This document shows positions 13,662 to 54,420 of a stretch of DNA of 64,000 nt, piece after piece (position 1 is the first letter of the stretch; every line of letters starts with the position of its first letter). The notes beneath the pieces are model-generated. The model was given only the letters and a program-made list of their open reading frames with translations, was not told where the DNA came from and did not search any database. Origin of the DNA: Arenicola marina (taxonomy: Eukaryota; Annelida; Polychaeta; Arenicolidae); contig OZ025258.1 in the NCBI GenBank assembly GCA_964019135.1, positions 868,001 through 932,000 on the forward strand, given 5' to 3'. A program made the translations under genes and the position numbers.

Positions 13662-13967
13662 CTATAAAAATAAGTTATCGAAGGAGGTAGAATCGCGAAC
13701 CGACGGATTGTACAGGGATGAAAGGTTCTTTTCCCATACATTAAGTACTTCTTCAGTTTCCGTAAAACAGTGTTCGTCTGTGACAACTCTCATTGGAATA
13801 TCCTTGTTTGAACGAGGTCCAAGTCGCTTAAGAGTGTCCCAGAATTCCTTGGGATTCTTACTGCTAATATCATCCAGTGTCCTTATCAATGTAGAACTAT
13901 GCTCTCTCTTAGCCTTCCGTAACTCTCTGTCAAATGTGTGTCTAGCTGCCTGAAATTCCCTTCTCAA
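13662..13967 (-). pseudogene. LINE linker between endonuclease and reverse transcriptase
   Basis: About 100 codons including RELRKAKREH and NPKEFWDTLKRLGP, typical of the charged linker before the reverse transcriptase in CR1/Jockey-like elements. It shares its frame with the endonuclease fragment upstream; only an in-frame TAA near 14000 separates them. Confidence 0.8.
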
Positions 13968-13997
13968 CTTACTCTTCTCTTTAGTACTACCCTTACA

Positions 13998-14609: not shown

Positions 14610-14634
14610 TGAGTCTCCGTGACTGTTCTTAGAC

Positions 14635-15543: not shown

Positions 15544-15669
15544 GTTCTAAGATATTCTCATCCTGCTCGGGACGCATGTTAATTGCAATGATCGTCACCT
15601 CGGGGTCAACAGGTCAAACGGCGTTCTCTGTGCCAGGCCTCCTCTCTCTTCAAGTGTGGTCAGGCGTTT

Positions 15670-19918: not shown

Positions 19919-19948
19919 AGGGGTTGCTCCCGTCGTGCCGGCTGACAA

Positions 19949-19987
19949 CTATCTCTCTTCGGTGTCTTTTCGCTTTTCGTGAGTATC
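19949..19987 (-). CDS. SVOP: Probable last coding exon of the SVOP-like transporter
   Basis: On the minus strand, TTTTGGTTGCAG precedes an open stretch of 12 codons, DTHEKRKDTEER, then TAG at 19951-19949. The acceptor is phase 0, matching the phase-0 donor at 31088, so joining keeps the frame after LPIETKGRTME. The product is a short hydrophilic tail, as expected for the cytosolic C-terminus that follows the last membrane helix in SVOP. The intron would be 11.1 kb. The exon is short and inferred from the splice site and phase only; the alternative is read-through into the intron, ending near 30548. Confidence 0.5.
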   Translation of the reverse strand, partial: DTHEKRKDTEER

Positions 19988-20055
19988 CTGCAACCAAAAT
20001 GTTCAAATTGTAACTCCGTTATCCGTTATAGAGTCCAGCGACACGATCTGACCCC

Positions 20056-23000
20056 GAGAGGGGAGGGAGGGGGGTGGTCAGGGTGTATGTCCTTACCTCC
20101 ATCGTCCTGCCCTTGGTCTCTATGGGCAGCAGCAGGCTGGCTATAGCGCCCAGTATGTACATTGTGAGGGGAGGGAGGGAGGGAGGGGGGTGGTCAGGGT
20201 GTATGTCCTTACCTCCATCGTCCTGCCCTTGGTCTCTATGGGCAGCAGCAGGCTGGCTATAGCGCCCAGTATGTACATTGTGAGGGGAGGGAGGGAGGGA
20301 GGGGGGTGGTCAGGGTGTATGTCCTTACCTCCATCGTCCTGCCCTTGGTCTCTATGGGCAGCAGCAGGCTGGCTATAGCGCCCAGTATGTACATTGTGAG
20401 GGGAGGGAGGGAGGGGGGTGGTCAGGGTGTATGTCCTTACCTCCATCGTCCTGCCCTTGGTCTCTATGGGCAGCAGCAGGCTGGCTATAGCGCCCAGTAT
20501 GTACATTGTGAGGGGAGGGAGGGAGGGGGGTGGTCAGGGTGTATGTCCTTACCTCCATCGTCCTGCCCTTGGTCTCTATGGGCAGCAGCAGGCTGGCTAT
20601 AGCGCCCAGTATGTACATTGTGAGGGGAGGGAGGGAGGGGGGTGGTCAGGGTGTATGTCCTTACCTCCATCGTCCTGCCCTTGGTCTCTATGGGCAGCAG
20701 CAGGCTGGCTATAGCGCCCAGTATGTACATTGTGAGGGGAGGGAGGGAGGGGGGTGGTCAGGGTGTATGTCCTTACCTCCATCGTCCTGCCCTTGGTCTC
20801 TATGGGCAGCAGCAGGCTGGCTATAGCGCCCAGTATGTACATTGTGAGGGGAGGGAGGGAGGGGGGTGGTCAGGGTGTATGTCCTTACCTCCATCGTCCT
20901 GCCCTTGGTCTCTATGGGCAGCAGCAGGCTGGCTATAGCGCCCAGTATACACATTGTGAGGGGAGGGAGAGAGGGAGGGGGGTGGTCAGGGTGTATGTCC
21001 TTACCTCCATCGTCCTGCCCTTGGTCTCTATGGGCAGCAGCAGGCTGGCTATAGCGCCCAGTATGTACATTGTGAGGGGAGGGAGGGAGGGGGGTGGTCA
21101 GGGTGTATGTCCTTACCTCCATCGTCCTGCCCTTGGTCTCTATGGGCAGCAGCAGGCTGGCTATAGCGCCCAGTATGTACATTGTGAGGGGAGGGAGGGA
21201 GGGGGGTGGTCAGGGTGTATGTCCTTACCTCCATCGTCCTGCCCTTGGTCTCTATGGGCAGCAGCAGGCTGGCTATAGCGCCCAGTATGTACATTGTGAG
21301 GGGAGGGAGGGAGGGGGGTGGTCAGGGTGTATGTCCTTACCTCCATCGTCCTGCCCTTGGTCTCTATGGGCAGCAGCAGGCTGGCTATAGCGCCCAGTAT
21401 ACACATTGTGAGGGGAGGGAGGGAGGGAGGGGGGTGGTCAGGGTGTATGTCCTTACCTCCATCGTCCTGCCCTTGGTCTCTATGGGCAGCAGCAGGCTGG
21501 CTATAGCGCCCAGTATGTACATTGTGAGGGGAGGGAGGGAGGGGGGTGGTCAGGGTGTATGTCCTTACCTCCATCGTCCTGCCCTTGGTCTCTATGGGCA
21601 GCAGCAGGCTGGCTATAGCCCCAGTATGTACATTGTGAGGGGAGGGAGAGAGGGAGGGGGGTGGTCAGGGTGTATGTCCTTACCTCCATCGTCCTGCCCT
21701 TGGTCTCTATGGGCAGCAGCAGGCTGGCTATAGCGCCCAGTATGTACATTGTGAGGGGAGGGAGGGAGGGGGGTGGTCAGGGTGTCTGTCCTTACCTCCA
21801 TCGTCCTGCCCTTGGTCTCTATGGGCAGCAGCAGGCTGGCTAGAGCGCCCAGTATGTACATTGTGAGGGGAGGGAGGGAGGGAGGGGGGTGGTCAGGGTG
21901 TATGTCCTTACCTCCATCGTCCTGCCCTTGGTCTCTATGGGCAGCAGCAGGCTGGCTATAGCGCCCAGTATGTACATTGTGAGGGGAGGGAGGGAGGGAG
22001 GGGGGTGGTCAGGGTGTATGTCCTTACCTCCATCGTCCTGCCCTTGGTCTCTATGGGCAGCAGCAGGCTGGCTATAGCGCCCAGTATGTACATTGTGAGG
22101 GGAGGGAGGGAGGGAGGGGGGTGGTCAGGGTGTATGTCCTTACCTCCATCGTCCTGCCCTTGGTCTCTGTGGGCAGCAGCAGGCTGGCTATAGCGCCCAG
22201 TATGTACATTGTGAGGGGAGGGAGGGAGGGAGGGGTGGTCAGGGTGTATGTCCTTACCTCCATCGTCCTGCCCTTGGTCTCTATGGGCAGCAGCAGGCTG
22301 GCTATAGCGCCCAGTATGTACATTGTGAGGGGAGGGAGGGAGGGAGGGGGGTGGTCAGGGTGTATGTCCTTACCTCCATCGTCCTGCCCTTGGTCTCTAT
22401 GGGCAGCAGCAGGCTGGCTATAGCGCCCAGTATGTACATTGTGAGGGGAGGGAGGGAGGGAGGGGTGGTCAGGGTGTATGTCCTTACCTCCATCGTCCTG
22501 CCCTTGGTCTCTATGGGCAGCAGCAGGCTGGCTATAGCGCCCAGTATGTACATTGTGAGGGGAGGGAGGGAGGGAGGGGGGTGGTCAGGGTGTATGTCCT
22601 TACCTCCATCGTCCTGCCCTTGGTCTCTATGGGCAGCAGCAGGCTGGCTATAGCGGCCAGTATGTACATTGTGAGGGGAGGGAGGGAGGGAGGGGGGTGG
22701 TCAGGGTGTATGTCCTTACCTCCATCGTCCTGCCCCTGGTCTCTATGGGCAGCGGCAGGCTGGCTATAGCCCCAGTATGTACATTGTGAGGGGAGGGAGG
22801 GAGGGAGGGGGGTGGTCAGGGTGTATGTCCTTACCTCCATCGTCCTGCCCTTGGTCTCTATGGGCAGCAGCAGGCTGGCTATAGCCCCAGTATGTACATT
22901 GTGAGGGGAGGGAGGGAGGGAGGGGGGTGGTCAGGGTGTATGTCCTTACCTCCATCGTCCTGCCCTTGGTCTCTATGGGCAGCAGCAGGCTGGCTATAGC

Positions 23001-26000
23001 CCCAGTATGTACATTGTGAGGGGAGGGAGGGAGGGGGGTGGTCAGGGTGTATGTCCTTACCTCCATCGTCCTGCCCTTGGTCTCTATGGGCAGCAGCAGG
23101 CTGGCAATAGCGGCCAGTATGTACATTGTGAGGGGAGGGAGGGAGGGGAGTGGTCAGGGTGTATGTCCTTACCTCCATCATCCTGCCCTTGGTCTCTATG
23201 GGCAGCAGCAGGCTGGCTATAGCGCCCAGTATGTACATTGTGAGGGGAGGGAGGGAGGGAGGGGTGGTCAGGGTGTATGTCCTTACCTCCATCATCCTGC
23301 CCTTGGTCTCTATGGGCAGCAGCAGGCTGGCTATAGCGCCCAGTATGTACATTGTGAGGGGAGGGAGGGAGGGAGGGGGGTGGTCAGGGTGTATGTCCTT
23401 ACCTCCATCGTCCTGCCCTTGGTCTCTATGGGCAGCAGCAGGCTGGCTATAGCGCCCAGTATGTACATTGTGAGGGGAGGGAGGGAGGGAGGGGTGGTCA
23501 GGGTGTATGTCCTTACCTCCATCGTCCTGCCCTTGGTCTCTATGGGCAGCAGCAGGCTGGCTATAGCGCCCAGTATGTACATTGTGAGGGGAGGAAGGGA
23601 GGGAGGGGGGTGGTCAGGGTGTATGTCCTTACCTCCATCGTCCTGCCCTTGGTCTCTATGGGCAGCAGCAGGCTGGCTATAGCGCCCAGTATGTACATTG
23701 TGAGGGGAGGGAGGGAGGGAGGGGTGGTCAGGGTGTATGTCCTTACCTCCATCGTCCTGCCCTTGGTCTCTATGGGCAGCAGCAGGCTGGCTATAGCGGC
23801 CAGTATGTACATTGTGAGGGGAGGGGGGGGGGGGGGCAGGGGGTGGTCAGGGTGTATGTCCTTACCTCCATCATCCTGCCCTTGGTCTCTATGGGCAGCA
23901 GCAGGCTGGCTATAGCGCCCAGTATGTACATTGTGAGGGGAGGGAGGGAGGGGGGTGGTCAGGGTGTATGTCCTTACCTCCATCATCCTGCCCTTGGTCT
24001 CTATGGGCAGCAGCAGGCTGGCTATAGCGCCCAGTATGTACATTGTGAGGGGAGGGAGGGAGGGACGGAGGGGGGTGGTCAGGGTGTATGTCCTTACCTC
24101 CATCATCCTGCCCTTGGTCTCTATGGGCAGCAGCAGGCTGGCTATAGCGCCCAGTATGTACATTGTGAGGGGAGGGAGGGAGGGACGGAGGGGGGTGGTC
24201 AGGGTGTATGTCCTTACCTCCATCGTCCTGCCCTTGGTCTCTATGGGCAGCAGCAGGCTGGCTATAGCGGCCAGTATGTACATTGTGAGGGGAGGGAGGG
24301 AGGGAGGGGGGTGGTCAGGGTGTATGTCCTTACCTCCATCGTCCTGCCCTTGGTCTCTATGGGCAGCAGCAGGCTGGCTATAGCCCCAGTATGTACATTG
24401 TGAGGGGAGGGAGGGAGGGGGGTGGTCAGGGTGTATGTCCTTACCTCCATCGTCCTGCCCTTGGTCTCTATGGGAAGCAGCAGGCTGGCTATAGCGCCCA
24501 GTATGTACATTGTGAGGGGAGGGAGGGAGGGGGGTGGTCAGGGTGTATGTCCTTACCTCCATCGTCCTGCCCTTGGTCTCTATGGGAAGCAGCAGGCTGG
24601 CTATAGCGCCCAGTATGTACATTGTGAGGGGAGGGAGGGAGGGGGGTGGTCAGGGTGTATGTCCTTACCTCCATCGTCCTGCCCTTGGTCTCTATGGGCA
24701 GCAGCAGGCTGGCTATAGCGCCCAGTATGTACATTGTGAGGGGAGGGAGGGAGGGGGGTGGTCAGGGTGTATGTCCTTACCTCCATCGTCCTGCCCTTGG
24801 TCTCTATGGGCAGCAGCAGGCTGGCTATAGCGCCCAGTATGTACATTGTGAGGGGAGGGAGGGAGGGGGGTGGTCAGGGTGTATGTCCTTACCTCCATCG
24901 TCCTGCCCTTGGTCTCTATGGGAAGCAGCAGGCTGGCTATAGCGCCCAGTATGTACATTGTGAGGGGAGGGAGGGAGGGGGGTGGTCAGGGTGTATGTCC
25001 TTACCTCCATCGTCCTGCCCTTGGTCTCTATGGGCAGCAGCAGGCTGGCTATAGCGCCCAGTATGTACATTGTGAGGGGAGGGAGGGAGGGGGGTGGTCA
25101 GGGTGTATGTCCTTACCTCCATCGTCCTGCCCTTGGTCTCTATGGGAAGCAGCAGGCTGGCTATAGCGCCCAGTATGTACATTGTGAGGGGAGGGAGGGA
25201 GGGGGGTGGTCAGGGTGTATGTCCTTACCTCCATCGTCCTGCCCTTGGTCTCTATGGGAAGCAGCAGGCTGGCTATAGCGCCCAGTATGTACATTGTGAG
25301 GGGAGGGAGGGAGGGACGGAGGGGGGTGGTCAGGGTGTATGTCCTTACCTCCATCATCCTGCCCTTGGTCTCTATGGGCAGCAGCAGGCTGGCTATAGCG
25401 CCCAGTATGTACATTGTGAGGGGAGGGAGGGAGGGGGGTGGTCAGGGTGTATGTCCTTACCTCCATCGTCCTGCCCTTGGTCTCTATGGGAAGCAGCAGG
25501 CTGGCTATAGCGCCCAGTATGTACATTGTGAGGGGAGGGAGGGAGGGGGGTGGTCAGGGTGTATGTCCTTACCTCCATCATCCTGCCCTTGGTCTCTATG
25601 GGCAGCAGCAGGCTGGCTATAGCGCCCAGTATGTACATTGTGAGGGGAGGGAGGGAGGGACGGAGTGGGGTGGTCAGGGTGTATGTCCTTACCTCCATCA
25701 TCCTGCCCTTGGTCTCTATGGGCAGCAGCAGGCTGGCTATAGCGCCCAGTATGTACATTGTGAGGGGAGGGAGGGAGGGGGGTGGTCAGGGTGTATGTCC
25801 TTACCTCCATCGTCCTGCCCTTGGTCTCTATGGGAAGCAGCAGGCTGGCTATAGCGCCCAGTATGTACATTGTGAGGGGAGGGAGGGAGGGGGGTGGTCA
25901 GGGTGTATGTCCTTACCTCCATCGTCCTGCCCTTGGTCTCTATGGGCAGCAGCAGGCTGGCTATAGCGCCCAGTATGTACATTGTGAGGGGAGGGAGGGA

Positions 26001-29000
26001 GGGGGGTGGTCAGGGTGTATGTCCTTACCTCCATCGTCCTGCCCTTGGTCTCTATGGGAAGCAGCAGGCTGGCTATAGCGCCCAGTATGTACATTGTGAG
26101 GGGAGGGAGGGAGGGGGGTGGTCAGGGTGTATGTCCTTACCTCCATCGTCCTGCCCTTGGTCTCTATGGGAAGCAGCAGGCTGGCTATAGCGCCCAGTAT
26201 GTACATTGTGAGGGGAGGGAGGGAGGGACGGAGGGGGGTGGTCAGGGTGTATGTCCTTACCTCCATCATCCTGCCCTTGGTCTCTATGGGCAGCAGCAGG
26301 CTGGCTATAGCGCCCAGTATGTACATTGTGAGGGGAGGGAGGGAGGGAGGGGGGTGGTCAGGGTGTATGTCCTTACCTCCATCGTCCTGCCCCTGGTCTC
26401 TATGGGCAGCGGCAGGCTGGCTATAGCCCCAGTATGTACATTGTGAGGGGAGGGAGGGAGGGAGGGGGGTGGTCAGGGTGTATGTCCTTACCTCCATCGT
26501 CCTGCCCTTGGTCTCTATGGGCAGCAGCAGGCTGGCTATAGCCCCAGTATGTACATTGTGAGGGGAGGGAGGGAGGGAGGGGGGTGGTCAGGGTGTATGT
26601 CCTTACCTCCATCGTCCTGCCCTTGGTCTCTATGGGCAGCAGCAGGCTGGCTATAGCCCCAGTATGTACATTGTGAGGGGAGGGAGGGAGGGGGGTGGTC
26701 AGGGTGTATGTCCTTACCTCCATCGTCCTGCCCTTGGTCTCTATGGGCAGCAGCAGGCTGGCAATAGCGGCCAGTATGTACATTGTGAGGGGAGGGAGGG
26801 AGGGGAGTGGTCAGGGTGTATGTCCTTACCTCCATCATCCTGCCCTTGGTCTCTATGGGCAGCAGCAGGCTGGCTATAGCGCCAAGTATGTACATTGTGA
26901 GGGGAGGGAGGGAGGGAGGGGTGGTCAGGGTGTATGTCCTTACCTCCATCATCCTGCCCTTGGTCTCTATGGGCAGCAGCAGGCTGGCTATAGCGCCCAG
27001 TATGTACATTGTGAGGGGAGGGAGGGAGGGAGGGGGGTGGTCAGGGTGTATGTCCTTACCTCCATCGTCCTGCCCTTGGTCTCTATGGGCAGCAGCAGGC
27101 TGGCTATAGCGCCCAGTATGTACATTGTGAGGGGAGGGAGGGAGGGAGGGGTGGTCAGGGTGTATGTCCTTACCTCCATCGTCCTGCCCTTGGTCTCTAT
27201 GGGCAGCAGCAGGCTGGCTATAGCGCCCAGTATGTACATTGTGAGGGGAGGAAGGGAGGGAGGGGGGTGGTCAGGGTGTATGTCCTTACCTCCATCGTCC
27301 TGCCCTTGGTCTCTATGGGCAGCAGCAGGCTGGCTATAGCGCCCAGTATGTACATTGTGAGGGGAGGGAGGGAGGGAGGGGTGGTCAGGGTGTATGTCCT
27401 TACCTCCATCGTCCTGCCCTTGGTCTCTATGGGAAGCAGCAGGCTGGCTATAGCGCCCAGTATGTACATTGTGAGGGGAGGGAGGGAGGGGGGTGGTCAG
27501 GGTGTATGTCCTTACCTCCATCGTCCTGCCCTTGGTCTCTATGGGCAGCAGCAGGCTGGCTATAGCGCCCAGTATGTACATTGTGAGGGGAGGGAGGGAG
27601 GGGGGTGGTCAGGGTGTATGTCCTTACCTCCATCGTCCTGCCCTTGGTCTCTATGGGAAGCAGCAGGCTGGCTATAGCGCCCAGTATGTACATTGTGAGG
27701 GGAGGGAGGGAGGGGGGTGGTCAGGGTGTATGTCCTTACCTCCATCGTCCTGCCCTTGGTCTCTATGGGAAGCAGCAGGCTGGCTATAGCGCCCAGTATG
27801 TACATTGTGAGGGGAGGGAGGGAGGGACGGAGGGGGGTGGTCAGGGTGTATGTCCTTACCTCCATCATCCTGCCCTTGGTCTCTATGGGCAGCAGCAGGC
27901 TGGCTATAGCGCCCAGTATGTACATTGTGAGGGGAGGGAGGGAGGGGGGTGGTCAGGGTGTATGTCCTTACCTCCATCGTCCTGCCCTTGGTCTCTATGG
28001 GAAGCAGCAGGCTGGCTATAGCGCCCAGTATGTACATTGTGAGGGGAGGGAGGGAGGGGGGTGGTCAGGGTGTATGTCCTTACCTCCATCATCCTGCCCT
28101 TGGTCTCTATGGGCAGCAGCAGGCTGGCTATAGCGCCCAGTATGTACATTGTGAGGGGAGGGAGGGAGGGACGGAGTGGGGTGGTCAGGGTGTATGTCCT
28201 TACCTCCATCATCCTGCCCTTGGTCTCTATGGGCAGCAGCAGGCTGGCTATAGCGCCCAGTATGTACATTGTGAGGGGAGGGAGGGAGGGGGGTGGTCAG
28301 GGTGTATGTCCTTACCTCCATCGTCCTGCCCTTGGTCTCTATGGGAAGCAGCAGGCTGGCTATAGCGCCCAGTATGTACATTGTGAGGGGAGGGAGGGAG
28401 GGGGGTGGTCAGGGTGTATGTCCTTACCTCCATCGTCCTGCCCTTGGTCTCTATGGGCAGCAGCAGGCTGGCTATAGCGCCCAGTATGTACATTGTGAGG
28501 GGAGGGAGGGAGGGGGGTGGTCAGGGTGTATGTCCTTACCTCCATCGTCCTGCCCTTGGTCTCTATGGGAAGCAGCAGGCTGGCTATAGCGCCCAGTATG
28601 TACATTGTGAGGGGAGGGAGGGAGGGGGGTGGTCAGGGTGTATGTCCTTACCTCCATCGTCCTGCCCTTGGTCTCTATGGGAAGCAGCAGGCTGGCTATA
28701 GCGCCCAGTATGTACATTGTGAGGGGAGGGAGGGAGGGACGGAGGGGGGTGGTCAGGGTGTATGTCCTTACCTCCATCATCCTGCCCTTGGTCTCTATGG
28801 GCAGCAGCAGGCTGGCTATAGCGCCCAGTATGTACATTGTGAGGGGAGGGAGGGAGGGGGGTGGTCAGGGTGTATGTCCTTACCTCCATCGTCCTGCCCT
28901 TGGTCTCTATGGGAAGCAGCAGGCTGGCTATAGCGCCCAGTATGTACATTGTGAGGGGAGGGAGGGAGGGGGGTGGTCAGGGTGTATGTCCTTACCTCCA

Positions 29001-31145
29001 TCATCCTGCCCTTGGTCTCTATGGGCAGCAGCAGGCTGGCTATAGCGCCCAGTATGTACATTGTGAGGGGAGGGAGGGAGGGGGGTGGTCAGGGTGTATG
29101 TCCTTACCTCCATCGTCCTGCCCTTGGTCTCTATGGGAAGCAGCAGGCTGGCTATAGCGCCCAGTATGTACATTGTGAGGGGAGGGAGGGAGGGACGGAG
29201 GGGGGTGGTCAGGGTGTATGTCCTTACCTCCATCATCCTGCCCTTGGTCTCTATGGGCAGCAGCAGGCTGGCTATAGCGCCCAGTATGTACATTGTGAGG
29301 GGAGGGAGGGAGGGGGGTGGTCAGGGTGTATGTCCTTACCTCCATCGTCCTGCCCTTGGTCTCTATGGGAAGCAGCAGGCTGGCTATAGCGCCCAGTATG
29401 TACATTGTGAGGGGAGGGAGGGAGGGGGGTGGTCAGGGTGTATGTCCTTACCTCCATCATCCTGCCCTTGGTCTCTATGGGCAGCAGCAGGCTGGCTATA
29501 GCGCCCAGTATGTACATTGTGAGGGGAGGGAGGGAGGGACGGAGTGGGGTGGTCAGGGTGTATGTCCTTACCTCCATCATCCTGCCCTTGGTCTCTATGG
29601 GCAGCAGCAGGCTGGCTATAGCGCCCAGTATGTACATTGTGAGGGGAGGGAGGGAGGGGGGTGGTCAGGGTGTATGTCCTTACCTCCATCGTCCTGCCCT
29701 TGGTCTCTATGGGCAGCAGCAGGCTGGCTATAGCGCCCAGTATGTACATTGTGAGGGGAGGGAGGGAGGGAGGGAGGGGGGTGGTCAGGGTGTATGTCCT
29801 TACCTCCATCGTCCTGCCCTTGGTCTCTATGGGCAGCAGCAGGCTGGCTATAGCGTCCAGTATGTACATTGTGAGGGGAGGGAGGGAGGGAGGGGGGTGG
29901 TCAGGGTGTATGTCCTTACCTCCATCATCCTGCCCTTGGTCTCTATGGGCAGCAGCAGGCTGGCTATAGCGCCCAGTATGTACATTGTGAGGGGAGGGAG
30001 GGAGGGACGGAGGGGGGTGGTCAGGGTGTATGTCCTTACCTCCATCGTCCTGCCCTTGGTCTCTATGGGCAGCAGCAGGCTGGCTATAGCGCCCAGTATG
30101 TACATTGTGAGGGGAGGGAGGGAGGGAGGGAGGGGGGCGGTCAGGGTGTATGTCCTTACCTCCATCATCCTGCCCTTGGTCTCTATGGGCAGCAGCAGGC
30201 TGGCTATAGCGCCCAGTATGTACATTGTGAGGGGAGGGAGGGAGGGGGGTGGTCAGGGTGTATGTCCTTACCTCCATCATCCTGCCCTTGGTCTCTATGG
30301 GCAGCAGCAGGCTGGCTATAGCGCCCAGTATGTACATTGTGAGGGGAGGGAGGGAGGGAGGGAGGGGGGTGGTCAGGGTGTATGTCCTTACCTCCATCAT
30401 CCTGCCCTTGGTCTCTATGGGCAGCAGCAGGCTGGCTATAGCGCCCAGTATGTACATTGTGAGGGGAGGGAGGGAGGGGGGTGGTCAGGGTGTATGTCCT
30501 TACCTCCATCGTCCTGCCCTTGGTCTCTATGGGAAGCAGCAGGCTGGCTATAGCGCCCAGTATGTACATTGTGAGGGGAGGGAGGGAGGGGGGTGGTCAG
30601 GGTGTATGTCCTTACCTCCATCATCCTGCCCTTGGTCTCTATGGGCAGCAGCAGGCTGGCTATAGCGCCCAGTATGTACATTGTGAGGGGAGGGAGGGAG
30701 GGACGGAGGGGGGTGGTCAGGGTGTATGTCCTTACCTCCATCGTCCTGCCCTTGGTCTCTATGGGAAGCAGCAGGCTGGCTATAGCGCCCAGTATGTACA
30801 TTGTGAGGGGAGGGAGGGAGGGGGGTGGTCAGGGTGTATGTCCTTACCTCCATCGTCCTGCCCTTGGTCTCTATGGGCAGCAGCAGGCTGGCTATAGCGC
30901 CCAGTATGTACATTGTGAGGGGAGGGAGGGAGGGAGGGAGGGGGGTGGTCAGGGTGTATGTCCTTACCTCCATCGTCCTGCCCTTGGTCTCTATGGGCAG
31001 CAGCAGGCTGGCTATAGCGCCCAGTATGTACATTGTGAGGGGAGGGAGGGAGGGAGGGAGGGGGGTGGTCAGGGTGTATGTCCTTACCTCCATCGTCCTG
31101 CCCTTGGTCTCTATGGGCAGCAGCAGGCTGGCTATAGCGCCCAGG
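20056..31145 (-). repeat. 111-124 bp array of exon-end plus splice-donor units, about 95 copies
   Basis: The array fills nearly the whole 11.1 kb last intron of the SVOP-like gene. On the gene strand the basic 112-bp unit has 66 nt matching the end of the exon at 31088-31201 (encoding LGAIASLLLPIETKGRTME), then GTAAGGACATACACC and a C-rich CCCTCCCTCCCTCCC tract up to the next unit. Size classes of 111-124 bp come mainly from the number of CCCT repeats and an inserted GTCC. Point variants recur in blocks (CATCATCC for CATCGTCC, GGGAAGCAGC for GGGCAGCAGC, GCGGCC for GCGCCC), showing block duplication. Open frames up to 357 codons on both strands are repeat products, not genes. Confidence 0.97.
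22656..23790. repeat. Block duplicated 3,657 bp away (first copy)
   Basis: Shared rare variants tie this block to about 26313-27447: TGCCCCTGG plus CAGCGGCAGG (22731 and 26388), GGCAATAGCGGCC (23104 and 26761) and GGGGAGGAAGGG (23587 and 27244), all offset by 3,657 bp. It shows segmental duplication inside the 112-bp array. Confidence 0.85.
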
Positions 31146-31201
31146 ATACACATTCCGCCATAGACGTTGATAGCCACGTACACAGACGACCGCAGCGCCA
31201 C
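31088..31201 (-). CDS. SVOP: SVOP-like transporter exon: membrane helix 12 and LPIETKGR motif
   Basis: 114 bp, 38 codons, phase 0 at both ends; acceptor CTCATTAG before 31201 and donor GAG/GTAAGG after 31088. The product has LRSSVYVAINVYGG, then hydrophobic CILGAIASLLLP and IETKGRTME. This matches the last transmembrane helix and the LPIETKGR sequence characteristic of SVOP. SVOP is an orphan major facilitator protein of synaptic vesicles in vertebrates; its substrate is not established. The 3' 66 nt are the source or sister of the units in the adjoining 11-kb array. The frame stays open into the intron as far as 30548 if it is retained. Confidence 0.9.
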
Positions 31202-31282
31202 CTAATGAGAGTATGCATCACAAGCAGCCCATATCAATACATGGTATTACTTGGGCATTAATTACTAGGCAATGGGTGCTAA

Positions 31283-31559
31283 CTTGGTTACAGTACATTG
31301 GGCGTTGCCTTGGTTAAAGTACACTGTGGGTGTTACCTTGGTTACAGTACACAGTGGGCGTTGCCTTGGTTAAATACACTGTGGGTGTTACCTTGGTTAC
31401 AGTACACAGTGGGCGTTGCCTTGGTTACAGTACACAGTGGGCGTTCCCTTGGTTATAGTACACTGTGGGCGTTCCCTTGGTTATAGTACACTGTGGGTGT
31501 TACCTTGGTTATAGTACACTGTGGGCGTTCCCTTGGTTACAGTACACTGTGGGTGTTAC
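31283..31559 (-). repeat. 28-bp array at the 5' end of the intron after 31560
   Basis: About 10 copies of a 28-bp unit occupy most of the 358-bp intron. On the gene strand the unit runs from GTAACACCCACAGTG to TGTAACCAAG, so the next unit begins AAG/GTAACACC, imitating the real junction CAG/GTAACACC. Some units read GGCAACGCC or GGGAACGCC and lose the donor GT; about three keep it. The array touches the exon directly. Confidence 0.93.
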
Positions 31560-31649
31560 CTGGGCCACGAAGGGGGTGACGAGTGCTCCGATGCGCGCCA
31601 TTCCGCTGCAGGACCCCAGACCGAGGGCACGAAACGTGGTCGGGTAGAC
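31560..31649 (-). CDS. SVOP: SVOP-like transporter exon: loop and membrane helix 11
   Basis: 90 bp, 30 codons, phase 0 at both ends; acceptor CCCCAG before 31649, donor CAG/GTAACA after 31560. It begins VYPTTF and continues [17 protein letters not shown] and VTPFVAQ. RALGLG-CSGMAR-GAL is a highly conserved stretch of SVOP between helices 10 and 11 and in helix 11. It joins in frame to the exon upstream, which ends YVYTPE, giving the family hallmark YTPE-VYPT, and to the exon downstream. Confidence 0.92.
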
Positions 31650-31963
31650 CTGGGGACAACGCCACCAAGTGGACAAGACGGTCAAACATGTGGCAGGGCT
31701 ACAACTGTCCAGCCAGTGATCACTGTGGTTAACATACTCTTCACAATCAAGCCAATATCGCCCTTAACAGCAGATCCTTTGTTTCTGTAAGTATGATACA
31801 TTGCGAGTATCTATGAAGGCATATGTAAATGATAACTTTACAATATGAAACACTTGGAAAAGCCAACAGCGAGTATTACGGTTTATTTTGTTATTTAAAC
31901 ATTATTTAACATTTTCTGAGGTTCCTCTGAACGGGATGCCACCGAGCAGCGTGTATCACGACG
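31650..31963 (-). other. Intron part without array
   Basis: The acceptor-proximal part of the 4.16 kb intron between exons 35808 and 31649. It is unique sequence with no coding potential recognised. Confidence 0.7.
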
Positions 31964-34900
31964 TACCTACCTCTGGAGTGTACACGTAGGTGGCCTACCT
32001 CTGGAGTGTACACGTGGGTGGCTTACCTCTGGAGTGTACACGTAGGTGGCTTACCTCTGGAGTGTACACGTAGGCTGGCTTACCTCTGGAGTGTACACGT
32101 AGGCTGGCTTACCTCTGGAGTGTACACGTAGGTGGCTTACCTCTGGAGTGTACACGTGGGTGGCTTACCTCTGGAGTGTACACGTAGACTGGCTTACCTC
32201 TGGAGTGTACACGTAGACTGGCTTACCTCTAGAGTGTACACGTAGGTGGCTTACCTCTGGAGTGTACACGTAGGCTGGCTTACCTCTGGAGTGTACACGT
32301 AGGCTGGCTTACCTCTGGAGTGTACACGTAGACTGGCTTACCTCTGGAGTGTACACGTAGGTGGCTTACCTCTGGAGTGTACACGTAGGTGGCTTACCTC
32401 TGGAGTGTACACGTAGACTGACTGGCTGGCTTACCTCTGGAGTGTACACGTAGACTGACTGGCTGGCTTACCTCTGGAGTGTACACGTAGACTGGCTTAC
32501 CTCTGGAGTGTACACGTAGGTGGCTTACCTCTGGAGTGTACACGTAGGCTGGCTTACCTCTGGAGTGTACACGTAGGTGGCTTACCTCTGGAGTGTACAC
32601 GTAGGCTGGCTTACCTCTGGAGTGTACACGTAGACTGGCCTACCTCTGGAGTGTACACGTAGGCTGGCTTACCTCTGGAGTGTACACGTAGGCTGGCTTA
32701 CCTCTGGAGTGTACACGTAGACTGGCTTACCTCTGGAGTGTACACGTAGGTGGCTTACCTCTGGAGTGTACACGTAGGTGGCTTACCTCTGGAGTGTACA
32801 CGTAGACTGACTGGCTGGCTTACCTCTGGAGTGTACACGTAGACTGGCTTACCTCTGGAGTGTACACGTAGGTGGCTTACCTCTGGAGTGTACACGTAGG
32901 CTGGCTTACCTCTGGAGTGTACACGTAGACTGGCTTACCTCTGGAGTGTACACGTAGGTGGCTTACCTCTGGAGTGTACACGTAGACTGGCTGGCTGGCT
33001 TACCTCTGGAGTGTACACGTAGGTGGCTTACCTCTGGAGTGTACACGTAGACTGACTGGCTGGCTTACCTCTGGAGTGTACACGTAGACTGGCTTACCTC
33101 TGGAGTGTACACGTAGGTGGCTTACCTCTGGAGTGTACACGTAGGTGGCTTACCTCTGGAGTGTACACGTGGGTGGCTTACCTCTGGAGTGTACACGTAG
33201 GCTGGCTTACCTCTGGAGTGTACACGTAGACTGACTGGCTGGCTTACCTCTGGAGTGTACACGTAGACTGGCTTACCTCTAGAGTGTACACGTAGGTGGC
33301 TTACCTCTGGAGTGTACACGTAGGTGGCTTACCTCTGGAGTGTACACGTAGACTGGCTTACCTCTGGAGTGTACACGTAGACTGACTGGCTGGCTTACCT
33401 CTGGAGTGTACACGTAGACTGGCTTACCTCTGGAGTGTACACGTAGGTGGCTTACCTCTGGAGTGTACACGTAGACTGGCTTACCTCTGGAGTGTACACG
33501 TGGGTGGCTTACCTCTGGAGTGTACACGTAGACTGGCTGGCTGGCTTACCTCTGGAGTGTACACGTAGGCTCGCTTACCTCTGGAGTGTACACGTAGGTG
33601 GCTTACCTCTGGAGTGTACACGTAGACTGGCCTACCTCTGGAGTGTACACCTAGGCTGGCTTACCTCTGGAGTGTACACGTAGACTGGCCTACCTCTGGA
33701 GTGTACACGTAGACTGGCCTACCTCTGGAGTGTACACGTAGGTGGCTTACCTCTGGAGTGTACACGTAGACTGGCCTACCTCTGGAGTGTACACGTAGGT
33801 GGCTTACCTCTGGAGTGTACACGTAGACTGGCCTACCTCTGGAGTGTACACCTAGGCTGGCTTACCTCTGGAGTGTACACGTAGACTGGCCTACCTCTGG
33901 AGTGTACACGTAGACTGGCCTACCTCTGGAGTGTACACGTAGGTGGCTTACCTCTGGAGTGTACACGTAGACTGGCCTACCTCTGGAGTGTACACGTGGG
34001 TGGCTTACCTCTGGAGTGTACACGTAGGTGGCTTACCTCTGGAGTGTACACGTAGGTGGCTTACCTCTGGAGTGTACACGTAGGTGGCTTACCTCTGGAG
34101 TGTACACGTAGACTGGCCTACCTCTGGAGTGTACACCTAGGCTGGCTTACCTCTGGAGTGTACACGTAGACTGGCCTACCTCTGGAGTGTACACGTAGAC
34201 TGGCCTACCTCTGGAGTGTACACGTAGGTGGCTTACCTCTAGAGTGTACACGTAGGTGGCTTACCTCTGGAGTGTACACGTAGACTGGCCTACCTCTGGA
34301 GTGTACACCTAGGCTGGCTTACCTCTGGAGTGTACACGTAGACTGGCCTACCTCTGGAGTGTACACGTAGACTGGCTTACCTCTGGAGTGTACACGTAGG
34401 TGGCTTACCTCTGGAGTGTACACGGTAGACTGGCTTACCTCTGGAGTGTACACGTAGGCTGGCTTACCTCTGGAGTGTACACGTAGACTGACTGGCTGGC
34501 TTACCTCTGGAGTGTACACGTAGACTGGCTTACCTCTGGAGTGTACACGTAGGTGGCTTACCTCTGGAGTGTACACATAGACTGACTGGCTGGCTTACCT
34601 CTGGAGTGTACACGTAGACTGGCTTACCTCTGGAGTGTACACGTAGACTGGCTTACCTCGGGAGTGTACACGTAGATGGCTTACCTCTGGAGTGTACACG
34701 TAGGCTGGCTGGCTGGCTTACCTCTGGAGTGTACACGTAGGCTCGCTTACCTCTGGAGTGTACACGTAGGCTCGCTTACCTCTGGCGTGTACACGTAGGC
34801 TCGCTTACCTCTGGAGTGTACACGTAGGCTCGCTTACCTCTGGCGTGTACACGTAGGCTCGCTTACCTTTGGAGTGTACACGTAGGCTCGCTTACCTCTG

Positions 34901-35828
34901 GAGTGTACACGTAGACTGACTGGCTGGCTTACCTCTGGAGTGTACACGTAGACTGGCTTACCTCTGGAGTGTACACGTAGGTGGCTTACCTCTGGAGTGT
35001 ACACGTAGGCTGGCTTACCTCTGGAGTGTACACGTAGGTGGCTTACCTCTGGAGTGTACACGTAGACTGGCTTACCTCTGGAGTGTACACGTAGACTGGC
35101 TTACCTCTGGAGTGTACACGTAGGCTGGCTTACCTCTGGAGTGTACACGTGGGTGGCCTACCTCTGGAGTGTACACGTAGACTGACTGGCTGGCTTACCT
35201 CTGGAGTGTACACGTAGACTGGCTTACCTCTGGAGTGTACACGTAGACTGGCTTACCTCTAGAGTGTACACGTAGGTTGGCTTACCTCTAGAGTGTACAC
35301 GTAGGTTGGCTTACCTCAGGAGTGTACACGTAGACTGACTTACCTCGGGAGTGTACATGTAGGCTGGCTTACCTCTGGAGTGTACACCTAGGCTGGCTTA
35401 CCTCTGGAGTGTACACGTAGACTGGCTTACCTCTAGAGTGTACACGTAGGTTGGCTTACCTCTGGAGTGTACACGTGGGTTGGCTTACCTCTGGAGTGTA
35501 CACGTAGGCTGGCTTACCTCTGGAGTGTACACGTGGGTTGGCTTACCTCTGGAGTGTACACGTAGGCTGGCTTACCTCTGGAGTGTACACGTGGGTTGGC
35601 TTACCTCTGGAGTGTACACGTGGGTTGGCTTACCTCTGGAGTGTACACGTAGGCTGGTTTACCTCTGGAGTGTACACGTAGGCTGGCTTACCTCTAGAGT
35701 GTACACGTAGGTTGGCTTACCTCTGGAGTGTACACGTGGGTTGGCTTACCTCTGGAGTGTACACGTAGGCTGGCTTACCTCTGGAGTGTACACGTAGGTT
35801 GGCTTACCTCTGGAGTGTACACGTAGGC
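31964..35828 (-). repeat. 28-37 bp array of exon-end plus splice-donor units, about 130 copies
   Basis: On the gene strand each unit reads CCTACGTGTACACTCCAGAG followed by GTAAGCCAG or a close variant. The first part equals the last 20 nt of the exon at 35808-35889 and the second the first bases of its intron, so nearly every unit carries a strong donor, GAG/GTAAGC. Lengths of 28, 29 and 37 bp reflect GTAAGCCA, GTAAGCCAG and a version with extra CCAGTCAG. The array fills most of the 4.16 kb intron and merges without a gap into the real exon end. GTGTACAC in each unit is palindromic. Confidence 0.97.
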
Positions 35829-35889
35829 TGCCTGGAAGGCTCCTGAGATGAAGGCTCGAGCCACGAACAGGAACAAAGTCAGCACAGTC
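35808..35889 (-). CDS. SVOP: SVOP-like transporter exon: membrane helix 10
   Basis: 82 bp; acceptor GTGCTTGCAG before 35889, donor GAG/GTAAGC after 35808. One nucleotide completes an Arg codon begun in the previous exon; 27 codons follow: TVLTLFLFV then [34 protein letters not shown] is almost invariant in SVOP proteins and forms helix 10 with the following loop. Phase 0 at the donor fits the next exon. The final 20 nt are repeated about 130 times in the following intron. Confidence 0.93.
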
Positions 35890-36195
35890 CTGCAAGCACA
35901 GCAGGATGTGAGGGGGGGGGGGTTACGTTATGACAACGACTGACTTATTTTGAAAATATCAAGCTATGAGGAGTTAAGTTATTTGCAAGCACCCAGCAGT
36001 ACATATGTACTCATCCCGCACTACACGTGTACTCATCCCGCAGTACACTTGTACTCATCCGCAGTACACATGAACCCACCCTGCCGTACCATAATAGGAA
36101 CATTTTGCCTATTTTTTTACCTCGGGTACAGATGAGAGAACTTTTGCCTTACTATTGACCTCGATTACAGATACAAGCAGTATTGACGTACTCAC
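35890..36195 (-). other. 306-bp intron with a small 22-bp repeat
   Basis: GTGAGT donor, TTGCAG acceptor. At about 35993-36087 roughly four copies of a 22-bp unit occur (gene strand: GGATGAGTACACGTGTA and variants). The TGAGTAC within the unit recalls the donor GTGAGTAC at 36195, but with AT in place of GT, so the link to the donor is weak. Confidence 0.8.
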
Positions 36196-36307
36196 CTCGT
36201 GGTGCACATGTTGACGAGGAAGACGAAGATGGAGAAGACGAAGAACTCGAGCGCCATGGTCCTCTTGCGGCCCAGCCACTCGATGATGAGGAACGTGATG
36301 AAGAGCC
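36196..36307 (-). CDS. SVOP: SVOP-like transporter exon: loop 8-9 and membrane helix 9
   Basis: 112 bp; acceptor GTCCCCAG before 36307, donor AG/GTGAGT after 36196. The exon begins in phase 1 (GG completes a Gly codon) and ends two bases into an Arg codon. The 36 full codons read LFITFLIIEWLGRKRTMALE, then a hydrophobic helix (FFVFSIFVFLVNMC). E-x-LGRK-TMA is the major facilitator loop motif as found in SVOP (D-R-LGRK-TMA in vertebrates). The preceding exon, expected to end in a Phe-Pro-Gly type sequence, is not in the window. Confidence 0.9.
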
Positions 36308-36420
36308 CTGGGGACAAGGAAACAGGCGACATCCATGGGGCATGTTCCTGGCGCTATGTACCACATGCAGTCTATGGTAAAAGGGTGCTTCACTGGTCAT
36401 TTAACCGGCGACATGCATGA

Positions 36421-37533
36421 AAGTGGCAGTCATGGTCAGCCAGAAGGAAACGTCGCTATGCGGTGATAGTGTCAGTCATGGTCAGCCAGAAGGAAACGTC
36501 GCTATGCGGTGATAGTGGCAGTCATGGTCAGCCAGAAGGAAACGTCGCTATGCGGTGATAGTGTCAGTCATGGTCAGCCAGAAGGAAGCGTCGCTATGCG
36601 GTGATAGTGCCAGTCATGGTCAGCCAGAAGGAAACGTTGCTATGCTGTGATAGTGTCAGTCATGGTCAGCCAGAAGGAAGCGACGCTATGCGGTGTTAGT
36701 GCCAGTCATGGTCAGCCACAAACGTCGCTATGCGGTGTTAGTGCCGGTTATGGTCAGCCAGAAGGAAACGTCGCTATGCGGTGATAGTGCCAGTCATGGT
36801 CAGCCAGAAGGAAACGTCGCTATGCGGTGATAGTGTCAGTCATGGTCAGCCAGAAGGAAGCGTCGCTATGCGGTGATAGTGCCAGTCATGGTCAGCCAGA
36901 AGGAAACGTCGCTATGCGGTGATAGTGTCAGTCATGGTCAGCCAGAAGGAAGCGTCGCTATGCGGTGTTAGTGCCAGTCATGGTCAGCCACAAACGTCGC
37001 TATGCGGTGTTAGTGCCAGTTATGGTCAGCCACAAACGTCGCTATGCGGTGTTAGTGCCAGTCATGGTCAGCCACAAACGTCGCTATGCGGTGTTAGTGC
37101 CGGTTATGGTCAGCCAGAAGGAAACGTCGCTATGCGGTGATAGTGCCAGTCATGGTCAGCCAGAAGGAAACGTCGCTATGAGGTGATAGTGCCAGTCATG
37201 GTCAGCCAGAAGGAAACGTCGCTATGCGGTGATAGTGCCAGTCATGGTGAGCCAGAGGAAAACGTCGCTATGCGGTGTTAGTGCCAGTCATGGTCAGCCA
37301 GAAGGAAGCGTCGCTATGCGGTGTTAGTACCAGTCATGGTCAGCCACAAACGTCGCTATGCGGTGTTAGTGCCAGTTATGGTCAGCCACAAACGTCGCTA
37401 TGCGGTGTTAGTGCCAGTCATGGTCAGCCACAAACGTCGCTATGCGGTGTTAGTGCCAGTCATGGTCAGCCAGAAGGAAACGTCGCTATGAGGTGATAGT
37501 GCCAGTCATGGTCAGCCAGAGGGAAACGTCGCT
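36421..37533. repeat. 46/42-bp tandem array, about 25 copies
   Basis: The unit contains CAGTCATGGTCAGCCAGAAG and AACGTCGCTATGCGGTGATA. Short 42-bp forms read CAGCCACAAACGTCGC and GGTGTTAGTG. The block of long and short forms at 36840-37140 recurs at about 37200-37500. It lies in the intron upstream of the exon at 36307, 114 bp from the acceptor, and shows no splice donor in its unit. Open frames of 73 codons are repeat artefacts. Confidence 0.96.
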
Positions 37534-38090
37534 GAGTTGAGTGACAAATGGCCGATTACGATGGACTGAGAAGTTCTACAGTTACTGGGTCGTACTATAT
37601 GGCACAAAAGGATATTGAGCAAGGTGTCAACAATAAATAAAAATTATTTGGCCTCTAGGAATACGCATTTACCGGCCGAATGTCATCATTGGAACCTGAA
37701 AACATCATTCTAACTTCAGCAGTACCGAAAGAAAATCATCACAACTAATACAGACCTTTTAGAACTTAAAATAACAGAATAACCAGATGATAACGAATGA
37801 AAATGCGCAATGCTGAGGATGTGCGGAATTCCAATGTGACCTTGGTGCAACCTATTCGACCAACCACGGGACTACGCAGACCGCATACCCCGGGCACGCC
37901 ACTGAGGAACCAAGGCAAGCCAACCACCGCGGGGTGACTCCGAGAGAAGCCATTGGGTTATAAGGGGACGGCCACCCTTGCAGGAGTCTATCAATGGCCC
38001 ACAACCAGCGACAGGGATGTATCTACACACTGTAGCGCCACCGACACCGTGAACAGTGGCATACAGGCGGTGCTGGACAGGATAATGCAC
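37534..38090. other. Unique intronic spacer between two arrays
   Basis: No exon of the SVOP-like gene could be recognised here on the minus strand, and open frames of 62-73 codons match nothing. It separates the 46-bp array from the 70-bp satellite. Confidence 0.6.
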
Positions 38091-41000
38091 CACTGGTTAC
38101 CAAGCTATTGGCCGCACTACTGTAGGCTTACAGTAGCATGAGGGATAACCGAGACATCACCACGGGTTACCAAGCCATTGGCCGCACTACTGTAGGCTTA
38201 CAGTAGCATGAGGGATAACCGAGACATCACCACGGGTTACCAAGCTATTAGCCGCACTACTGTAGGCTTACAGTAGTAAGAGGGATAACCGAGACATCAC
38301 CACGGGTTACCAAGCTATTGGCCGCACTACCGTAGGCTTACAGTAGCATGAGGGATAACCGAGACATCACCACGGGGTACCAAGCTATTGGCCGCACTAC
38401 TGTAGGCTTACAGTAGCATGAGGGATAACCGAGACATCACCACGGGTTACCAAGCTATTGGCCGCACTACTGCAGGCTTACAGTAGTAAGAGGGATAACC
38501 GAGATATCACCACGGGTTACCAAGCTATTAGCCGCACTACTGTAGGCTTACAGTAGTAAGAGGGATAACCGAGATATCACCGCGGGTTACCAAGCTATTG
38601 GCCGCACTACTGTAGGCTTACAGTAGCATGAGGGATAACCGAGACATCACCACGGGTTACCAAGCTATTGGCCGCAATACTGTAGGCTTACAGTAGTAAG
38701 AGGGATAACCGAGACATCACCACGGGTTACCAAGCTATTGGCCGCACTACTGTAGGCTTACAGTAGTAAGAGGGATAACCGAGATATCACCACGGGTTAC
38801 CAAGCTATTAGCCGCACTACTGTAGGCTTACAGTAGTAAGAGGGATAACCGAGATATCACCACGGGTTACCAAGCTATTAGCCGCACTACTGTAGACTTA
38901 CATTAGTAAGAGGGATAACCGAGACATCACCACGGGTTACCAAGCTATTGGCCGCACTACTGTAGGCTTACAGTAGCATGAGGGATAACCGAGACATCAC
39001 CACGGGTTACCAAGCTATTGGCCGCACTACTGTAGGCTTACAGTAGTAAGAGGGATAACCGAGACATCACCACGGGTTACCAAGCTATTAGCCGCACTAC
39101 TGTAGGCTTACAGTAGTAAGAGGGATAACCGAGACATCACCACGGGTTACCAATCTATTGGCCGCACTACTGTAGGCTTACAGTAGTAAGAGGGATAACC
39201 GAGATATCACCGCGGGTTACCAAGCTATTGGCCGCACTACTGTAGGCTTACAGTAGCATGAGGGATAACCGAGACATCACCGCGGGTTACCAAGCTATTG
39301 GCCGCACTACTGTAGGCTTACAGTAGTAAGAGGGATAACCGAGACATCACCACGGGTTACCAAGCTATTAGCCGCACTACTGTAGGCTTACAGTAGTAAG
39401 AGGGATAACCGAGACATCACCACGGGTTACCAAGCTATTGGCCGCACTACTGTAGGCTTACAGTAGTAAGAGGGATAACCGAGACATCACCACGGGTTAC
39501 CAAGCTATTGGCCGCACTACTGTAGGCTTACAGTAGTAAGAGGGATAACCGAGACATCACCACGGGTTACCAAGCTATTGGCCGCACTACTGTAGGCTTA
39601 CAGTAGTAAGAGGGATAACCGAGACATCACCACGGGTTACCAAGCTATTAGCCGCACTACTGTAGGCTTACAGTAGTAAGAGGGATAACCGAGACATCAC
39701 CACGGGTTACCAAGCTATTGGCCGCACTACTGTAGGCTTACAGTAGTAAGAGGGATAACCGAGACATCACCACGGGTTACCAAGCTATTGGCCGCACTAC
39801 TGTAGGCTTACAGTAGTAAGAGGGATAACCGAGACATCACCACGGGTTACCAAGCTATTAGCCGCACTACTGTAGGCTTACAGTAGTAAGAGGGATAACC
39901 GAGACATCACCACGGGTTACCAAGCTATTGGCCGCACTACTGTAGGCTTACAGTAGTAAGAGGGATAACCGAGACATCACCACGGGTTACCAAGCTATTA
40001 GCCGCACTACTGTAGGCTTACAGTAGTAAGAGGGATAACCGAGACATCACCACGGGTTACCAAGCTATTGGCCGCACTACTGTAGGCTTACAGTAGTAAG
40101 AGGGATAACCGAGACATCACCACGGGTTACCAAGCTATTGGCCGCACTACTGTAGGCTTACAGTAGTAAGAGGGATAACCGAGACATCACCACGGGTTAC
40201 CAAGCTATTGGCCGCACTACTGCAGGCTTACAGTAGTAAGAGGGATAACCGAGACATCACCACGGGTTACCAAGCTATTAGCCGCACTACTGTAGGCTTA
40301 CAGTAGTAAGAGGGATAACCGAGACATCACCACGGGTTACCAAGCTATTGGCCGCACTACTGTAGGCTTACAGTAGTAAGAGGGATAACCGAGACATCAC
40401 CACGGGTTACCAAGCTATTAGCCGCACTACTGTAGGCTTACAGTAGCATGAGGGATAACCGAGACATCACCACGCGTTACCAAGTTATTGGCCGCACTAC
40501 TGTAGGCTTACAGTAGTAAGAGGGATAACCGAGACATCACCACGGGTTACCAAGCTATTGGCCGCACTACTGTAGGCTTACAGTAGCATGAGGGATAACC
40601 GAGACATCACCGCGGGTTACCAAGCTATTGGCCGCACTACTGTAGGCTTACAGTAGCATGAGGGATAACCGAGACATCACCACGGGTTACCAAGCTATTG
40701 GCCGCACTACTGTAGGCTTAGTAAGAGGGATAACCGAGACATCACCACGGGTTACCAAGCTATTGGCCGCACTACTGTAGGCTTACAGTAGTAAGAGGGA
40801 TAACCGAGACATCACCACGGGTTACCAAGCTATTGGCCGCACTACTGTAGGCTTACAGTAGTAAGAGGGATAACCGAGACATCACCACGGGTTACCAAGC
40901 TATTGGCCGCACTACTGTAGGCTTACAGTAGTAAGAGGGATAACCGAGACATCACCACGGGTTACCAAGCTATTGGCCGCACTACTGTAGGCTTACAGTA

Positions 41001-44000: not shown

Positions 44001-45473
44001 GCTTACAGTAGCATAAGGGATAACCGAGACATCACCACGGGTTACCAAGCTATTGGCCGCACTACTGTAGGCTTACAGTAGTAAGAGGGATAACCGAGAC
44101 ATCACCACGGGTTACCAAGCTATTGGCCGCACTACTGTAGGCTTACAGTAGTAAGAGGGATAACCGAGACATCCCCACGGGTTACCAAGCTATTGGCCGC
44201 AATACTGTAGGCTTACAGTAGTAAGAGGGATAACCGAGACATCACCACGGGTTACCAAGCTATTGGCCGCACTACTGTAGGCTTACAGTAGCATGAGGGA
44301 TAACCGAGACATCACCACGGGTTACCAAGCTATTGGCCGCACTACTGTAGGCTTACAGTAGTAAGATGGATAACCGAGACATCACCACGGGTTACCAAGC
44401 TATTGGCCGCACTACTGTAGGCTTACAGTAGTAAGAGGGATAACCGAGACATCACCACGGGTTACTAAGCTATTGGCCGCACTGCTGTAGGCTTACAGTA
44501 GCATGAGGGATAACCGAGACATCACCACGGGTTACCAAGCTATTAGCCGCACTACTGTAGGCTTACAGTAGTAAGAGGGATAACCGAGACATCACCACGG
44601 GTTACCAAGCTATTGGCCGCACTACTGTAGGCTTACAGTAGTAAGAGGGATAACCGAGACATCACCACGGGTTACCAAGCTATTAGCCGCACTGCTGTAG
44701 GCTTACAGTAGTAAGAGGGATAACCGAGACATCCCCACGGGTTACCAAGCTATTGGCCGCACTACTGTAGGCTTACAGTAGTAAGAGGGATAACCGAGAC
44801 ATCACCACGGGTTACCAAGCTATTGGCCGCACTACTGTAGGCTTACAGTAGTAAGAGGGATAACCGAGACATCACCACGGGTTACCAAGCTATTGGCCGC
44901 ACTACTGTAGGCTTACAGTAGTAAGAGGGATAACCGAGACATCACCACGGGTTACCAAGCTATTGGCCGCACTACTGTAGGCTTACAGTAGTAAGAGGGA
45001 TAACCGAGACATCACCGCGGGTTACCAAGCTATTAGCCGCACTACTGTAGGCTTACAGTAGTAAGAGGGATAACCGAGACATCACCACGGGTTACCAAGC
45101 TATTGGCCGCACTACTGTAGGCTTACAGTAGTAAGAGGGATAACCGAGACATCACCACGGGTTACCAAGCTATTAGCCGCACTACTGTAGGCTTACAGTA
45201 GCATGAGGGATAACCGAGACATCACCACGCGTTACCAAGCTATTGGCCGCACTACTGTAGGCTTACAGTAGTAAGAGGGATAACCGAGACATCACCACGG
45301 GTTACCAAGCTATTGGCCGCACTACTGTAGGCTTACAGTAGCATAAGGGATAACCGAGACATCACCGCGGGTTACCAAGCTATTGGCCGCACTACTGTAG
45401 GCTTACGGTAGCATGAGGGATAACCGAGACATCACCACGGGTTACCAAGCTATTGGCCGCACTACTGTAGGCT

Positions 45474-54300: not shown

Positions 54301-54420
54301 CGAGATATCACCACGGGTTACCAAGCTATTGGCCGCACTACTGTAGGCTTACAGTAGTAAGGGGGATAACCGAGACATCACCACGGGTTACCAAGCTATC
54401 GGCCGCACTACTGTAGGCTT

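Follow-up and report, generated by a model that had tools for sequence, protein, structure and literature searches.

Mirages, the name given to exon-intron boundaries duplicated in tandem, have been described in amphioxus in Adh3, globins, troponin C and PGBD5, and the parts of these accounts on which we draw state that splicing is undisturbed (PMC3087553, PMC3902484). The units given there measure 10-72 bp in Adh3 and ~150-160 bp in the globins (PMC3087553, in part). A sequence-only reading of the annelid locus reported here had stated that no named system of this kind was known; these mirages, as the excerpts describe them, are one (PMC3087553, PMC3902484). In both animals the unit spans the exon-intron boundary, the true boundary sits at the edge of the array and several genes per genome are involved, and the PGBD5 repeats are said in the excerpts to abut 5' splice sites (PMC3087553, PMC3902484). 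The differences are considerable. The amphioxus host is a cephalochordate and ours an annelid; the excerpts give 3-6 units (BflGb6) or 2-7 (PGBD5), whereas here 8-137 extra copies extend over ~0.6-11 kb; and here, unlike in amphioxus, a single gene has such arrays in four to five of its introns. According to the same excerpts, the repeated side is the acceptor in BflGb6 and the donor in BflGb9, whereas the donor side is favoured here, and both splicing and length instability were examined in amphioxus, whereas the present arrays are known from one assembly's sequence alone.

In human genes within segmental duplications, variable tandem repeats are likewise found at exon-intron boundaries as minisatellites that alter gene structure (PMC2812944). 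The cases covered in the cited part of that work are short (~30-bp units, 4 times) and tied to new introns from cryptic splice sites, and long donor-repeating arrays inside an existing intron are absent from them (PMC2812944). Earthworm metallothionein genes share with our locus an annelid host and large intronic tandem arrays, although the cited portion reports no unit that copies an exon end and donor (PMC12783039). A search of titles and abstract starts in the open-licence literature returned no donor-anchored satellite arrays in annelids among the matches listed. AGGT proto-splice sites duplicated in tandem are also reported to create introns (Rogers; Gao and Lynch 2009; Zhuo 2007; cited in PMC3087553); splice signals are copied by tandem duplication in both settings, but the copies here lie within an intron. 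Recursive splicing (ratchet) sites carry an AG/GT junction, which is also present at some unit junctions here, whereas two of the four donor-spanning arrays in our main gene read TG/GT. Relative to known mirages, the new elements are the annelid host, the satellite size of the arrays, their number per gene and the donor bias.

The arrays lie in an SVOP-like transporter gene on the minus strand, identified by tblastn and exon modelling. The exon model was built on 164 kb of joined sequence, comprising the window (the whole 64,000-nucleotide stretch analysed) and 100 kb upstream of it, with human SVOP as the tblastn query. The model has 15 exons and 14 introns with GT-AG borders throughout and a single open frame of 469 residues that ends in a stop codon; the joined exons stay open when the first donor of every array is used. 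The predicted protein matches the major facilitator family (MFS_1, E 1.8e-32). Identity to the human SVOP query is 53-79% in 13 of 14 exon matches and 39% in the remaining one, where the match overruns the exon, and the last exon gave no tblastn match to this query. Because SLC22A6 ranks top among solved structures, above SV2B and SV2A, it is the likeness exon by exon that gives the gene the name SVOP-like. With regard to the host, mitochondrial COX1 is 91% identical to that of the annelid Pilargis wolfi (order Phyllodocida), and among the 120 matches listed annelids make up most of the other named ones, gastropods and other molluscs ranking lower. A GLUT8-like protein is 54% identical to a protein of the annelid Paralvinella and 49% and 47% identical to Branchiostoma proteins; with the COX1 result, this led us to discard amphioxus as the host, an idea prompted by the published mirages. 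The features of the window are as follows.

38088..64000 (continuing to 67404 beyond the window), minus strand: intron 10 satellite, 70-bp unit, ~419 copies, ~29 kb
36418..37533, minus strand: second array of intron 10, 46-bp unit, unanchored, stopping 110 nt short of the acceptor
36196..36307, minus strand: exon 11 of the 15 modelled (tblastn, GT-AG borders, open frame)
35996..36072, minus strand: small array of intron 11, 22-bp unit, unanchored (gaps of 123 and 106 nt)
35808..35889, minus strand: exon 12, its last 23-26 nt being the exon part of the intron 12 array
31968..35830, minus strand: intron 12 array, 29-bp unit, 129 extra copies of exon end and donor
31560..31649, minus strand: exon 13
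31283..31561, minus strand: intron 13 array, 28-bp unit, ~10 copies, starting at the donor with a 2-nt overlap
31088..31201, minus strand: exon 14, its last 57-67 nt being the exon part of the intron 14 array
20061..31144, minus strand: intron 14 array, ~112-bp unit, 96 extra copies of exon end and GTAAGG donor
19949..19987, minus strand: last exon with the stop codon
19102..19909, minus strand: array just past the stop codon, 42-bp unit

Arrays were called with Tandem Repeats Finder, which reports 29 bp x 130.9 copies at 35830-31968, 28 bp x 10.1 at 31561-31283 and 112 bp x 96.8 at 31144-20061. The sequence-only reading had placed at the donors at 35808, 31560 and 31088 arrays whose units reproduce the exon end and the splice donor. 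All three arrays do touch their donors, and exon-end copies are present at 35808 and 31088, but the array at 31560 makes donor contact only. For the exon-end lengths of the two large arrays, put at 20 nt and 66 nt in that reading, the measured values are 23 nt by overlap to 26 nt by the median of matches in intron 12, and 57 nt to 67 nt by the same two measures in intron 14. The description of the small intron 13 array was accurate, its likeness to the exon consisting of CCAAG for CCCAG and no more. In intron 12 the unit spacings are mostly 29, 28 or 37; GAGGTAR occurs 130 times, true donor included, the donor being GTAAG or GTAGG (GTAAA once), and 111 extra copies carry GTAAGC. In intron 14, TGGAGGTAAGG occurs 97 times, true donor included, and 73 nt remain ahead of the acceptor. 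When copies are located by an anchor outside the donor, GGT is kept in 130/130 intron 12 copies and GAGGTAAG in 96/96 intron 14 copies. In total, donor-spanning arrays, in which the unit joins an exon end to a donor, occupy 4 of the 14 SVOP-like introns (6, 8, 12 and 14; 40-137 extra copies). Introns 6 and 8 sit upstream of the window and bear a 37-bp unit with 137 extra copies and 15 exon nt copied, and a 76-bp unit with 40 extra copies and 53 exon nt copied, respectively.

Other arrays of the gene are placed differently. The 70-bp satellite of intron 10 starts 731 nt past the donor and is therefore not donor-anchored; it fills most of the intron, and by eye its unit contains an 8-bp inverted repeat. 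In introns 2, 4, 10 and 11 the arrays contact neither donor nor acceptor, and introns 1, 3, 5 and 9 hold no array above threshold. The intron 11 array was considered as a decayed mirage and rejected, its donor likeness being near chance and equalled by 96/2000 shuffles. Intron 7 has one array that begins 31 nt past the donor and another that reaches the acceptor with a 1-nt overlap, in which exon copies were not detectable; this 43-bp array (72694-76051 of the 164-kb region) shares TTGTAG with the acceptor in its units. The intron 4 array (83333-86536 of that region) ends in a stretch that by eye is tRNA-like, perhaps an amplified piece of a SINE. Past the stop codon, the 42-bp unit has 13 nt (AGATAGTTGTCAG) in common with the end of the last exon (19935-19957), a match reached by 1/2000 shuffles; it looks like exon-end copying without a donor. 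Further downstream, at 11700-15600 of the window on the minus strand, lie endonuclease-like and reverse-transcriptase-like stretches, named by eye, of a broken non-LTR retrotransposon.

The neighbouring gene, which the sequence-only reading had not picked, is RAD9: translated up to the ninth exon, it matches Pfam Rad9 at E 4.6e-78. Its model has 10 introns and is open into the tenth exon, whose model holds stops. Donor-spanning arrays are present in introns 4, 8 and 9, with 43, 59 and 8 extra copies and 16, 53 and ~31 exon nt copied, and in introns 5 and 6 arrays begin 12 and 10 nt past the donor. RAD9 intron 6 contains two distinct arrays with the same 29-bp unit (146521-147671 and 135548-139401 of the 164-kb region). 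The properties of mirages can be compared across both genes. Boundary-spanning units that repeat the exon (15-67 nt) are found in 7/24 introns, SVOP intron 13 not being one of them; the seven units are of minisatellite size (29-112 bp); and a true splice site at the array edge with an intact frame holds over the 15 SVOP-like exons and, in RAD9, into the tenth exon. Pairwise comparison of the units of ten arrays of the region gave a single 11-nt match, between two arrays outside those originally singled out, in agreement with the earlier statement that the units are unrelated. The claim of independent origin at several donors is supported, and extends to seven introns of two adjacent genes and to two loci on another contig. 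An assembly artefact or a false gene model could in principle produce such a picture, as long arrays are difficult to assemble; we regard it as highly improbable, since individual copies differ in single bases and in length, separate loci show the same pattern, GT-AG borders and an open frame run through the whole exon model and the RAD9 translation matches its family at the E value above.

Donors and acceptors were compared in the 24 introns of these two genes (SVOP-like 14, RAD9 10). Because the genes are neighbours this sample is small and local, and its SVOP-like part had been selected by the original finding. Arrays are borne by 16 of the introns, and 84% of intron bases lie within arrays. 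The sequence-only reading had called for a genome-wide scan of arrays at donors against acceptors. Within these 24 introns, 8 have an array in contact with the donor and 1 has an array in contact with the acceptor (two-sided P 0.039), and arrays with exon copies occur at 7 donors and 0 acceptors (P 0.016), no exon sequence copied across an acceptor having been found in the 24. In the 16 array-bearing introns the median gap is 4 nt to the donor and 136.5 nt to the acceptor, and the tail outside arrays at the acceptor side is at least 73 nt in 14 of them. When the array blocks are slid over the parts of these introns that lie outside arrays, 0.14 donor contacts are predicted against 8 observed, under a null that ignores array growth up to a constrained border. 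A random-founder null gives 1.4-2.3 donor-spanning introns against 7 observed (P 0.0001-0.003; variants with 1.6 and 2.3 expected give P 0.0002 and P 0.003). For RAD9 alone, 3 were observed against 0.76-1.05 expected (P 0.02-0.05). The zero acceptor-spanning introns are not significant under this null (P 0.07-0.22).

We propose, at a probability of roughly 0.7, that the arrays are mirage-type minisatellites: tolerated junction-spanning duplications grown to limits set by splicing signals. A short tandem duplication across an exon-intron junction would copy the exon end together with the donor; the leftmost copy would preserve the true exon and donor, and the first donor would be the one used. 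Such a duplication can survive because the mRNA can stay unchanged, the leftmost copy keeping the true exon and donor. Unequal exchange or slippage may then expand the array within the intron. Its growth would be limited on the left by the exon, which is constrained in length and frame, and on the right would usually leave an array-free tail able to hold the branch point, the pyrimidine tract and the acceptor. Arrays of this kind would be close to neutral. The anatomy, the exon copies, the intact frame with first donors and, in the two genes, the donor/acceptor asymmetry are observed, and the earlier suggestion that multiplied donors are tolerated fits, the frame being intact with the first donor each time. 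The 3-5 fold excess over the uniform-founder expectation is not predicted by pure neutrality unless acceptor-side and interior arrays are lost more often, and an extra bias towards donors is possible.

The sequence-only reading had also raised the idea that exon-intron junctions are hot spots for amplification. In the form considered here, donors would be mutational hot spots at which some property of the transcribed junction, such as nascent RNA, U1-bound or R-loop-prone DNA or stalled forks, favours tandem duplication on the spot. The excess of donor-spanning introns, including that in RAD9 alone, is in its favour, as are further arrays that start 10-40 nt past a donor (SVOP introns 4 and 7, RAD9 introns 5 and 6, and an exon on stretch L022). 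Set against this, the original finding selected part of the sample, the stop-codon end looks copied without any donor, and survival bias alone can yield the same asymmetry. Furthermore, tandem arrays of period >=7 make up ~30% of ten spaced 10-kb stretches (8 on contig C1, 2 on C2) of the 867-Mb, 762-contig assembly, an abundance from which junction-spanning events are expected. We consider a hot spot unlikely.

Comparable arrays are found elsewhere in the assembly. Within the ten stretches, a WASHC4-like exon on contig C1 (Pfam WASH-7_mid, E 4.8e-10) precedes an array that holds 11 donors at ~70-bp steps, the true one included. On the same contig, an aldehyde dehydrogenase exon (Aldedh, E 3.3e-8) is followed by an array that copies the exon end. 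Genome-wide scans for three spaced copies of CAGGTAAG and of CAGGTGAG gave 8446 matches against 1770 for the backward pattern and 11308 against 3083, respectively, figures that count overlapping matches, with long arrays counted repeatedly, and not arrays. Of the first three arrays listed for CAGGTAAG, one was placed at a coding donor, that of the aldehyde dehydrogenase; the third consists mainly of CAGATAAG units with a few carrying GGTAAG, in a stretch that does not reach the array start. No donor array was seen in two sugar-transporter-like genes, whose unrefined models cover 8 and 2 matched exon blocks. Among 56 arrays from the region and the ten stretches, the finding's own arrays included, AGGTAA occurs 6 times against 0.86 expected (shuffle maximum 4), while AGGTRAG (3 against 0.90), GGTRAGK (5 against 2.24), GTRAGT (5 against 3.62) and MAGGTRWG (1 against 0.98) are all within shuffles. 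On stretch L023 (6570-6941, minus strand) a 62-bp array runs into an open stretch whose start its units resemble, a candidate acceptor-side mirage; the 24-residue translation of that open stretch has no Pfam match. Stretch L021 has donor-like units at 8278 and no coding evidence. It is tempting, if doubtful, to extend these observations to the genome as a whole, with exon-intron junctions as preferred satellite seeding points, many genes bearing tens to hundreds of decoys, and a strict exon-proximal first-donor rule rendering the decoys harmless.

The decoy donors themselves are largely intact. GT is kept in 510/512 extra copies of the seven arrays, in a search by junction likeness that favours intact donors, and, the units being very homogeneous, many other positions are retained equally well. 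Three introns have 96, 111 and 117 downstream copies that carry the six donor bases of the true site. In whole-unit alignments the donor window is unexceptional (P 0.37 for GT, P 0.56 for +1..+6), with the GT column of one array probably misaligned, as the junction search finds all 129 intact. In ungapped columns within 12 nt, GT shows 2 changes where a random neighbouring pair shows 30 (P 0.047). Any extra conservation of decoy GTs over other parts of the unit is marginal at best, and no clear gradient of identity to the true junction was found along the arrays. The retention figures and the P of 0.047 are what speaks for the idea, raised by the sequence-only reading, that multiplied donors are favoured, for example by recruiting U1 snRNP along long introns; such selection could act through protection against premature polyadenylation or through faster splicing. 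The unexceptional donor window (P 0.37; 0.56), the search bias, the stop-codon exon end apparently copied without a donor and the fact that the gene's longest array (70 bp, ~29 kb) is not donor-anchored all weigh against favoured donors, and we consider this reading very unlikely.

Use of the second donor shifts the frame in 5/7 donor-spanning arrays, so the first donor should dominate if protein is made. In the other two the frame is kept, the second donor adding 120 nt in SVOP intron 14 and 60 nt in RAD9 intron 9, and through the first copies of intron 14 the frame stays open (ORF 30548-31201). These two cases would suit arrays that feed splicing variety, with inner donors occasionally used and whole units added to the mRNA; given the five frame shifts, such a role appears quite unlikely.

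The arrays are a natural repeated test, within one gene, of choice among near-identical donors. In minigene work with duplicated donors the intron-proximal site has often been favoured, a choice that in these introns would lengthen the mRNA by kilobases of array. The arrays further hint at how the demands of splicing may determine the places open to satellite growth, and they extend mirages from lancelets to a protostome. The earlier hot-spot claim stands in part: the 7 donor-spanning introns exceed the 1.4-2.3 expected, in a sample partly selected by the finding itself.
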